A stretch of DNA of 64,000 nucleotides, taken from Pseudomonadota bacterium. GTDB taxonomy: Bacteria; Desulfobacterota; Desulfobulbia; Desulfobulbales; JAGXFP01. Shown here piece by piece: positions 45,139 to 48,601 of this stretch. Where the stretch lies: NCBI GenBank assembly GCA_018814305.1, contig JAHJAA010000013.1, positions 55,239 to 119,238 of the forward strand, in the 5' to 3' direction. The position numbers and the translations under genes are program-made. The notes under the pieces are model-generated. The model was not told where the DNA came from and searched no databases. It worked only from the letters and a program-made list of their open reading frames with translations. Position 1 is the stretch's first letter; each line of letters starts with the position of its first letter.

Positions 45139-45393
45139 ATGAGCACCTATGTATTCATTTATTTCATGGTCGATGATGTTGAAACGGTAAAAAGACATCT
45201 TGGGGCCCACGTCAAGTACTGGAAGAGTCTGAAGCTTGACTCTTTGAGGAACGGCCCTTTCACCGATAAATCCGGCGGGCTGATCATGTTCAATGCGGCA
45301 AGTCCCCAGATAGCCCGGGAGCGGATTGAACTGGACCCCTTTGTTACGGAAAAGGTCCTCAAGGAGTATTGGCTGAAAGAGTGGGTCTCATGA
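45139..45393 (+). CDS. YCII-related domain protein
   Basis: 85-aa-class fold with H and D: HVKYWKSLKLDSLRNGPFTDKSGGLIMFNAASPQIARERIELDPFV. Confidence 0.65.
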   Translation: MSTYVFIYFMVDDVETVKRHLGAHVKYWKSLKLDSLRNGPFTDKSGGLIMFNAASPQIARERIELDPFVTEKVLKEYWLKEWVS

Positions 45394-46047
45394 AAGTAGA
45401 AAATCGGTAATATAAGGATTTTCGGCCATCTCCCAGGCCAGGGTGGAGGTGGGTGTTTCACCGTAGTCGTGCCCCGGCCAGATTCGGGTTTCCGGTGGCA
45501 GGCAGATCACCTTGTGCTTCAAAGAATCAAGCAAGGTTTCAAAGGAACCGCCCACCAGATCGGTACGACCCACATCACCGACAAAGAGGGTATCCCCCGT
45601 GAAGAGATTGCCCTGAACCAGGAAACAGACCGACCCCGGGGTATGGCCGGGAGTGTGGATGATCTGGAAGGAAAGCTTCCCCACCGGCAACGCCTCCCCT
45701 TCCGCTAGCCGGACATCGCAGGGGCCAGCTGGTGCCATGCCAAGTTCCTTTTCGCTCCTGACCCTCACTTCGGGACGGGCAAAAAAGTCATCGTCCTCAG
45801 CATGCATATAGACCGGGATCTGATAGGTGTTTTTCAGCTTCAGGTTGGCCGCCACATGATCAGCATGGCCATGGGTATTTAAAATTGCAATTGGATCAAG
45901 CCCTGCCTCGCTGATTTCCCGAATGATCTTCTCCGCCTCGCCCCCCGGATCGATGATCACTGCCTGTCGGGTCTCGGAACATCCGACGAGATAACAGTTT
46001 ACCTGGTAACTCCCCACCACGACCTGCTTGATAATGACGGTATCCAT
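45388..46047 (-). CDS. MBL-fold metallo-hydrolase (glyoxalase II-like)
   Basis: NTHGHADHVAANLKL, HTPGHTPGSVCF, FTGDTLFVGDVGRTDL, WPGHDYGETPTS; start moved to ATG at 46047. Confidence 0.93.
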   Translation of the reverse strand: MDTVIIKQVVVGSYQVNCYLVGCSETRQAVIIDPGGEAEKIIREISEAGLDPIAILNTHGHADHVAANLKLKNTYQIPVYMHAEDDDFFARPEVRVRSEKELGMAPAGPCDVRLAEGEALPVGKLSFQIIHTPGHTPGSVCFLVQGNLFTGDTLFVGDVGRTDLVGGSFETLLDSLKHKVICLPPETRIWPGHDYGETPTSTLAWEMAENPYITDFLLS

Positions 46048-46268
46048 GGGCAATTCCTCGTTCTTTCCGTTATTCAAAACGCTCCCGAAGCGTTCACTTC
46101 CCGCTCCCCTGGAGTTTTCCGACTGTGGACAAATCATTTTCCAAATACAACTTCTCGGTTAGAGTGGTGGACAAGATATTAATGCACAGTTCCACATCTG
46201 ACCATTGCTCTTCATTCTGCGGATCTACGAAAGGCTCAGGGCAAGAGACAAAGACAGGGGAATTTCCG

Positions 46269-46475
46269 ATGACGAAAAAAATCTGCTACTGCTTCGGTTA
46301 TACCACCGCTGATATTGAACAGGATCTCCTGACTCATGGGGAATCACGAATCTTGGCCACGGTCATCGCCAGCAAGAAGGCCGGGGCGTGCGAGTGCGCG
46401 ACCAAAAACCCCAAGGGGCGCTGATGCCTGAGCGATGTCCGCCAGGTGGTGGACCAAGCCAAAAATTCCCCCTGA
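46269..46475 (+). CDS. Candidate selenoprotein: CopZ/BFD-like [2Fe-2S] protein with in-frame UGA (Sec) at 46422-46424
   Basis: MTKKICYCFGYTTADIEQDLLTHGESRILATVIASKKAGACECATKNPKGR-(TGA)-CLSDVRQVVDQAKNSP; TGA at the position expected to be Cys in NPxG(R/S)CCL(G)DV; AGGGG RBS-like motif before the ATG. Confidence 0.8.
46437..46454 (+). promoter_or_regulatory. Candidate bacterial SECIS hairpin
   Basis: GTCCGCC-AGGT-GGTGGAC: 7-bp stem (one G-U), apical loop AGGU beginning about 20 nt after the UGA. Confidence 0.75.
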
Positions 46476-46573: not shown

Positions 46574-48601
46574 TTACAGATGCGTCCGCTGTTCAATCCG
46601 GCGGGCAGCGGTCTGATAATAACTCTCCGCTTCTTCAATAAGTCGCCGGGCGCTTGAATCATCCAGTGATACTTCAGTCTCCAGGTCCGGCCGGACCACC
46701 CGCACCAACTGCCGGGGGGAAAGTTCGACCACCATCCCCTTTTCCATATAGCCGACGGTAAGATAATTCGCCATAAACGCCCTTTGATGAAAGACCCCGG
46801 AGGCCATAATATCTTGGCCGAAAAACTCAGACTCGTAGGAAATATTCAATAAACCCAGAATGGTCGGGGCAACATCAATCTGCGAGGCAACCCAATCGAT
46901 CGCCCCGGGCTGAATAAACCCAGGCGAATAGATCACCATGGGGATGTGGTAATTTTCCGGCGGCAGATCGATCCTGCCCCGGCCATGGTTGGTGTGATCC
47001 GCGACAAAAACAAAAACCGTGTCGGCAAACCACGATCTGGTCCCGGCCTCAGCCATGAATGCCCCAATCGCCCAATCGGTATACTTGACGGCCCCGTCCC
47101 GACCAGTATGGGAAGGAATATCGATCCGCCCTTCGGGATAGCTGAAGGGACGATGGTTGCTGGTGGTCATGATATGGGAGAAAAACGGTTTACCTATTTC
47201 AGACCGACGATCCATTTCCGCAAGCGACAAGGTAAAAAGATCCTCATCGGCCACTCCCCAGATGGTTTCATGGTGGATATTCTTGGCCGCAATATCGGTA
47301 CGATCAAATACTTCATAGCCCGCCTTGGTGAAGAAATCCCGCATATTATCGAAGTAGCTGTATCCCCCGTAAAAGTACAGACTCTCATAGCCATTTTCTT
47401 CCAGGACCGATCCCAGAGACATCAACCCACTGTTCCGCTCCCGAATCGGTACTGCCCGGCCCGGCGTCGGCGGCAGCGACAAGGTCAGGGCCTCAAGACC
47501 GCGAACGGTTCTGAGCCCGGTGGCATAAAGATTTGTGAAGATCAGACTCTCAGCGGACAAGGCGGTAAGAGTGGGGGTTAATCCCTTCTTACCGCCAAAG
47601 GACTCAACATAATCCGCACCCAGGCTCTCGATGGAAACGAGGATGATGTTTTTGCGATTCGGGGGGCCATTGGCTTGCACCGTATGCATGAACTCGCCGG
47701 CCCGTTCCGGAGACAGTTCAGCCTGGCGGGCCAAGGCCAGTTCTTCCTGCATGATGGACGCAACCCGGTTATCCGGCAGGGTGGCATAAAATCTTTTATA
47801 GTCCAGATCGTTATGACGGAAAGCACGAAACAACGCATATTGCCCGTTTGAGGCCAATTCAACCTCGGCTGGACTTGCCATCCAGTCATGGGGGCCCTCA
47901 TCAAGGAAATAAAAAGTCATGGTCAATAAAAGACAAAATCCCCCGGTCACCAACACCCTCACCACGAATCGAGGAGCAGGGAGCAGGCCGCTTCGCCAGA
48001 TCCGGGGGAGGAGGAGAACCATGGCCGCAAGCAGGCCTCCTCCAATGCCGAGTCCGATCCAGACCATGGGGTAGGATTGCTCGATATTTCCGACGACTTC
48101 TCGGGTATAGATAAGGTAATCAACGGCAATAAAATTAAACCGGGAGGAAAACTCATTCCAGAACAAAAACTCACCCACGGAACCCACGCCGAGAAGCGCC
48201 AGGCCACACGCCGCAAGGGCTGAGGCCACGAAGGCATGACCCCGCCGCCCCCATAAAGTGTTTGGCCACAACAAAGCATTCACGACAAATGGGGTCAGCA
48301 TCCAGCACAGGGCCGCCAAATCGTAAATCATTCCGCCCCCATAAACCCGCACCACAGAGGAGAGTCGAAAAAGCTCGACATCACCTTCAAAAACGAACAG
48401 AACTGTGCGCAGAGCAAGGCAGGATAGAAAATATATGGAGGCAAGTATCGCCAACACAGTGTACCGCGAACCAACCTCTCCCTTAACAGGAGAACGACGG
48501 AAAAAATCAAACAATCTCTTCATCGGGAATATAAGCGCCTCTTTTAACTTCGGAGCAGGGGGGAGAATTGCCGGAGGAATTCTTTCGATAAAATTAGGCA
48601 A
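46574..48601 (-). CDS. LTA synthase/MdoB-family sulfatase-fold phosphoglycerol transferase
   Basis: N-terminal TM helices; NIILVSIESLGADYVESFGGKKGLTPTLTAL; SNHRPF; DTVFVFVADHTNHGRG. Confidence 0.9.
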   Translation of the reverse strand: MPNFIERIPPAILPPAPKLKEALIFPMKRLFDFFRRSPVKGEVGSRYTVLAILASIYFLSCLALRTVLFVFEGDVELFRLSSVVRVYGGGMIYDLAALCWMLTPFVVNALLWPNTLWGRRGHAFVASALAACGLALLGVGSVGEFLFWNEFSSRFNFIAVDYLIYTREVVGNIEQSYPMVWIGLGIGGGLLAAMVLLLPRIWRSGLLPAPRFVVRVLVTGGFCLLLTMTFYFLDEGPHDWMASPAEVELASNGQYALFRAFRHNDLDYKRFYATLPDNRVASIMQEELALARQAELSPERAGEFMHTVQANGPPNRKNIILVSIESLGADYVESFGGKKGLTPTLTALSAESLIFTNLYATGLRTVRGLEALTLSLPPTPGRAVPIRERNSGLMSLGSVLEENGYESLYFYGGYSYFDNMRDFFTKAGYEVFDRTDIAAKNIHHETIWGVADEDLFTLSLAEMDRRSEIGKPFFSHIMTTSNHRPFSYPEGRIDIPSHTGRDGAVKYTDWAIGAFMAEAGTRSWFADTVFVFVADHTNHGRGRIDLPPENYHIPMVIYSPGFIQPGAIDWVASQIDVAPTILGLLNISYESEFFGQDIMASGVFHQRAFMANYLTVGYMEKGMVVELSPRQLVRVVRPDLETEVSLDDSSARRLIEEAESYYQTAARRIEQRTHL

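Follow-up and report, generated by a model that had tools for sequence, protein, structure and literature searches.

Selenoproteins related to the N-terminal domain of CopZ have already been listed as predictions. Specifically, two reviews from 2022 and 2026 include a '(2Fe-2S)-binding protein, copper chaperone CopZ family form 1' among the predicted selenoproteins (PMC9312934, PMC13188914), and the 2026 table gives its motif as GxUC, with WP_245779778.1 as the entry (PMC13188914). The tables provide no function, distribution or operons for this form (PMC13188914, PMC9312934), and the text of PMC2398784, the source cited for it, mentions neither copper nor 2Fe-2S. A second form (form 2, Csac_0668; NF045877) also has a CopZ N-terminal [2Fe-2S] domain with selenocysteine (Sec) in an adjacent pair, while the Cys-type CopZ N-terminal domains (NF047645; PDB 2HU9) show the pattern CxC...C...NPxGRCC. 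In full CopZ this domain is fused to an HMA domain. Bfd (PF04324) is a small, single-domain, helical [2Fe-2S] fold with a CxC near its N-terminus.

The gene described here lies in a 64,000-nucleotide stretch of DNA, hereafter the window, and its features are collected in Table 1. As the original prediction had proposed, the frame stays open past the first TGA, continuing as CLSDVRQVVDQAKNSP to a second TGA, and standard gene calling truncates the 68-residue protein, since table 11 ends the frame at residue 51 (...ATKNPKGR*). With the first TGA read as Sec, the product is MTKKICYCFGYTTADIEQDLLTHGESRILATVIASKKAGACECATKNPKGR-U-CLSDVRQVVDQAKNSP-stop. A scan for promoters and terminators around the gene found none on the + strand.

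Table 1. Coordinates, within the window, of the predicted selenoprotein gene, its elements and its neighbours.
Feature	Position	Strand	Basis
CDS of the predicted 68-aa CopZ/BFD-like [2Fe-2S] selenoprotein, including the terminal stop TGA	46269..46475	+	Translation, homologs, NCBIfam/Pfam
In-frame UGA, predicted Sec codon (residue 52)	46422..46424	+	TGA in 103/103 stand-alone homologs; Cys in distant relatives
Cys53, immediately after Sec	46425..46427	+	Kept in 103/103 homologs
Cys6-x-Cys8 motif, likely [2Fe-2S] ligands	46284..46292	+	Invariant in alignments; aligns with Cys75/Cys77 of PDB 2HU9
Cys41-x-Cys43 motif, Cys43 a likely [2Fe-2S] ligand	46389..46397	+	Cys43 in 103/103 and Cys41 in 102/103 stand-alone homologs; Cys43 aligns with Cys109 of 2HU9
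SECIS-like hairpin (bacterial), 7-bp stem, loop AGGU at 46444-46447	46437..46454	+	Folds; 96% pairing in 34 sequences with covariation; synonymous-recoding z -4.26
AGGGGA, Shine-Dalgarno-like, 7 nt upstream of the ATG	46256..46261	+	Sequence
Metallo-beta-lactamase-fold hydrolase, divergent neighbour, outside the unit	45388..46137	-	ORF, PF00753
Apparent sulfatase/LTA-synthase-like membrane protein, convergent neighbour, outside the unit	46574..48601	-	ORF; name from sequence reading

The G-R-U-C of the window protein fits the GxUC motif of CopZ form 1 exactly, and we therefore assign it to this listed but uncharacterised family, an assignment made on the motif and the shared domain type (cd10141, CopZ-like Fer2_BFD). 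The family is thus known as a predicted selenoprotein and is not wholly new; in the literature examined we did not find a description of its stand-alone, apparently Sec-only distribution, of its metalloid operons or of curated models missing it. The protein differs from form 2, where Sec is the second residue of the pair (CU, in a 161-aa model), since its own order is UC. It has the CxC...C...NPxGRCC pattern in common with the Cys-type CopZ N-terminal domains, but these carry Cys in place of Sec, and their model, at 138 aa, includes a further N-terminal half. The second pair of Bfd, CxxC, is missing from the window protein, which has CxC plus Sec-Cys instead (CxC...CxC...UC, compared with CxC...CxxC).

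The proposed assignment to the CopZ/BFD group holds at the level of the domain. The best curated match, NF047645 (CopZ_Nterm_CC), gave 57.4 bits (E 1.8e-15) over model positions 86-137 of 138, below its cut-off of 100, and NF045877 (CopZ_Nterm_CU) gave 25.8 bits, below its cut-off of 190. The Pfam family Fer2_BFD (PF04324) scored 15.8 bits (E=0.018), under the gathering cut-off of 26. When the family profile was compared with solved structures the single significant match was 2HU9 (E=0.0008), whose PDB title is 'mercuric transport protein periplasmic component' and which we take to be the N-domain of Archaeoglobus fulgidus CopZ; in this alignment Cys6, Cys8, Cys43, Sec52 and Cys53 fall on Cys75, Cys77, Cys109, Cys118 and Cys119. 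The predicted model of the protein is confident (pLDDT 92) and consists of four short helices, for which the sole sensible Foldseek match was Bfd (6e6s), a weak one (TM 0.53/0.63, E 3.1). Cys6, Cys8, Cys43 and one of Sec52 and Cys53 are expected to hold the predicted [2Fe-2S] cluster. We know of no characterised natural [2Fe-2S] protein with a selenolate ligand.

The window protein scores below the cut-offs of both NF047645 and NF045877. No curated NCBIfam model calls the family, so annotation probably cuts its genes short or overlooks them. This gap matters, as about half of the sampled genomes in the order of the host carry the gene.

In alignments the UGA column corresponds to the first Cys of NPxGRCC in the Cys-form relatives. 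A homolog was present in 51 of the 97 order-level relative genomes, with one TGA in every match spanning the site, while 64 of 396 phylum-level genomes gave a match and nearly all of these had the TGA, the four matches without an internal stop being open frames of 108-709 codons. The nearest named records were from Desulfobulbaceae, which suggests that the host belongs in or close to this group of Desulfobacterota. From the relatives we extracted 103 distinct stand-alone gene sequences; all of them have TGA at the Sec column, where neither TAA, TAG nor a sense codon occurs, and in all of them the next residue is Cys. Their terminal stops, by comparison, are mixed (43 TGA, 42 TAA and 18 TAG), so the residues past the first stop are kept far beyond chance, as had been anticipated: no close ortholog has a non-TGA stop at the site, and the homologs conserve what follows it. 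The expectation that homologs would alternate between TGA and Cys was borne out only in part. Cys occupies the column in distant proteins, namely CopZ-N-type proteins of 149-167 aa and a 633-aa MerA-type fusion, and also in small proteins from an archaeon and a Sumerlaeota bacterium, but a Cys version was not found among the stand-alone family members sampled in the phylum. Within the sampled phylum, the stand-alone family is apparently Sec-only, as judged from these genes. The 633-aa fusion (locus L111, genome G150) joins a Cys-type CopZ-N/BFD domain to an apparent mercuric-reductase-like flavoprotein. One homolog (locus L073, genome G433) carries an extra TGA shortly after the Sec codon and before the final stop, and its true end is uncertain.

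The follow-up also found a SECIS-like hairpin, which was absent from the original prediction. It has the sequence GUCCGCC-AGGU-GGUGGAC and begins 12 nt downstream of the UGA, placing the loop 19 nt after it, with an energy in folds of -14.4 to -15.5 kcal/mol. It fits the published bacterial SECIS model, which sets a limit of -7.5 kcal/mol (PMC13188914), and 90 of the 103 family hairpins lie at or below this value. In 34 aligned sequences 96.2% of the stem cells pair, compared with 33-66% in slid controls, 12 cells of the stem are double-changed and the covariation score exceeds that of all 500 shuffles. Across all 103 sequences columns 17-32 to 21-28 are paired in 98-100%, and the loops are mostly AGGU, GGGU or GUGU. 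Since the hairpin region is coding, synonymous recoding was used as the stability control: none of 200 recodings was as stable as the window hairpin, and the family hairpins gave a mean z of -2.2 (median p 0.025). Column 18 falls on the third position of a Val codon, where U or C is used, and column 31 on the first position of the Asp/Asn codon that follows five codons later; of the 22 sequences with A31, 21 have U18, the third base of Val thus tracking the Asp/Asn change. A tree that excluded these residues, and whose branch support was poor, implied at least 10 changes at column 31, with only two pairs on well-supported branches. An Rfam search of the gene region gave no match to a SECIS family, and its single match, to a snoRNA, was judged to be chance.

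The original prediction had made its case dependent on the selenocysteine genes of the host, and all of selA, selB, selC and selD were found in the genome: selA on contig C70, a full selB on C10 (58557-60455), and selC and selD on C19, the selC product being tRNA-SeC with a confirmed UCA anticodon. A second, divergent selB-like gene (C19, 1967-3856) directly adjoins selC, and a second SelD on C18 (locus L049, 1501-2430, - strand) has an in-frame UGA in its CGUAAK motif, making it a Sec-containing SelD. With a complete sel set and a Sec-containing SelD, the host very probably inserts Sec at UGA codons of other genes as well.

As a point against Sec decoding, some relatives have an incomplete set. 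In genomes G042, G049 and G027 neither selA (TIGR00474, PF03841) nor SepSecS was detected, despite the presence of the UGA gene, selB and tRNA-Sec, and selA was also missing from the stretches read around selB and selC in these three genomes, although it was found in the control, G016. G073 has tRNA-Sec and a full selB, with no SepSecS and, by TIGR00474 alone, no selA. The selA-less set comprises G042 (2 contigs), G049 (1 contig), G027 and G073 (loci L194-L197 and L204-L209), and two of the assemblies are nearly closed. The gap in G042, G049 and G027 may reflect a gene that the search overlooked, a replicon absent from the assembly or the use of a different Sec synthase.

Because TGA is present in 103 of 103 homologs and is followed by Cys, the true stops are mixed, the hairpin is stable and the sel genes are present, we consider it almost certain (a probability of roughly 0.9, judged from sequence) that the gene product is a selenoprotein, with Sec inserted at UGA codon 52. 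The hairpin 12 nt past the UGA would recruit SelB with Sec-tRNA(Sec), and the 68-residue product would consist of a lone CopZ-N/BFD-like [2Fe-2S] domain. Since only one of Sec52 and Cys53 would ligate the cluster, a reactive selenol or thiol would be left next to it, for which Cys41 may serve as the resolving partner. If the TGA were instead an ordinary stop, a functional 51-residue product would be made and the downstream conservation would be incidental. This would agree with table 11, which closes the frame there, and the short product would keep four Cys (6, 8, 41 and 43), a number enough for a cluster; however neither TAA nor TAG takes the place of TGA at the site in 103 homologs whose real stops are mixed, Cys53 is invariant, later residues and the hairpin are conserved, and the Cys relatives read through the column, all of which makes such a stop highly improbable. 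The same can be said of UGA being read as Trp or Cys, via suppression or an altered code: the frame is open under either reading, but the full Sec machinery, the Sec-containing SelD and the SECIS-like hairpin speak for Sec, and since 43 of the 103 homologs terminate at TGA, this codon is a normal stop in the family. The stop statistics of the 103 homologs led us to reject both the ordinary stop and the changed code.

The role of the selenoprotein is less clear-cut. The window copy stands alone, with both flanking genes on the opposite strand, but 27 of the 77 homologs with close same-strand neighbours (a raw count) lie in runs with ArsR, ArsC, an ArsP-type permease (PF03773, 254 bits), an ArsE/MTH895 thioredoxin, TauE/SafE or MerA, TauE being a less specific marker than the other genes. 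Examples, with the selenoprotein written as SecBFD, are ArsR-ArsC-permease-SecBFD-TauE-thioredoxin (L171) and ArsR-permease-SecBFD-thioredoxin (L098). Counted over 5 kb regardless of strand, the permease is near the gene at 14 loci, ArsR at 13 and ArsC at 11. Relatives in the plasmid collection, all below 60% identity, were annotated as CopZ-type, MerA or hypothetical, and among those borne on plasmids one is part of a gene annotated as MerA and another has MerB next to it. These operons suggest, tentatively and with odds a little short of even, that these small proteins assist the detoxification of arsenic, organoarsenicals or mercury, as partners in redox reactions or in metal(loid) handling. 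In the host, where the window copy has no such operon and an ArsR-permease-ArsE-type cluster, without a Sec gene, is located on another contig (C20), the protein would act in trans. The narrower proposal of a Sec-only family across the phylum, dedicated to this detoxification and with Sec either as a direct ligand of the [2Fe-2S] cluster or as a redox partner in contact with it, seems rather unlikely.

The main rival to a detoxification role is general electron transfer, with the selenoprotein serving as a general carrier, or as a Bfd-like ferredoxin in the release of iron from bacterioferritin, and the metalloid operons being secondary. We find this plausible, if short of probable: most homologs, the window copy included, lie outside metalloid operons, flavin reductase-like genes are among the other recurrent neighbours and the only sensible fold match is Bfd, although the tight, recurrent operons with ArsR, ArsC, the ArsP-type permease and MerA, as well as the Cys relatives fused to or adjoining MerA/MerB, argue against it. 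A copper chaperone like full-length CopZ would be suggested by the closest curated family, the CopZ N-terminal domain, and by 2HU9 as the sole significant solved relative; this is quite doubtful, since the protein is too short to include the copper-binding HMA domain or the N-terminal half of CopZ-N, and no copper ATPase recurs among the homolog neighbours. The selenoprotein family keeps Sec, with no Cys substitute found, next to its predicted [2Fe-2S] cluster, and its genes often belong to metalloid operons. It therefore offers a compact system for testing the contribution of selenium to the chemistry of iron-sulfur clusters or metalloids.

Finally, ORF reading places a metallo-beta-lactamase-type hydrolase directly before selB both in the host (locus L001, 3414-4073) and in G042 (locus L194, 838-1467), and in the window a hydrolase of the same superfamily is encoded divergently from the Sec gene.
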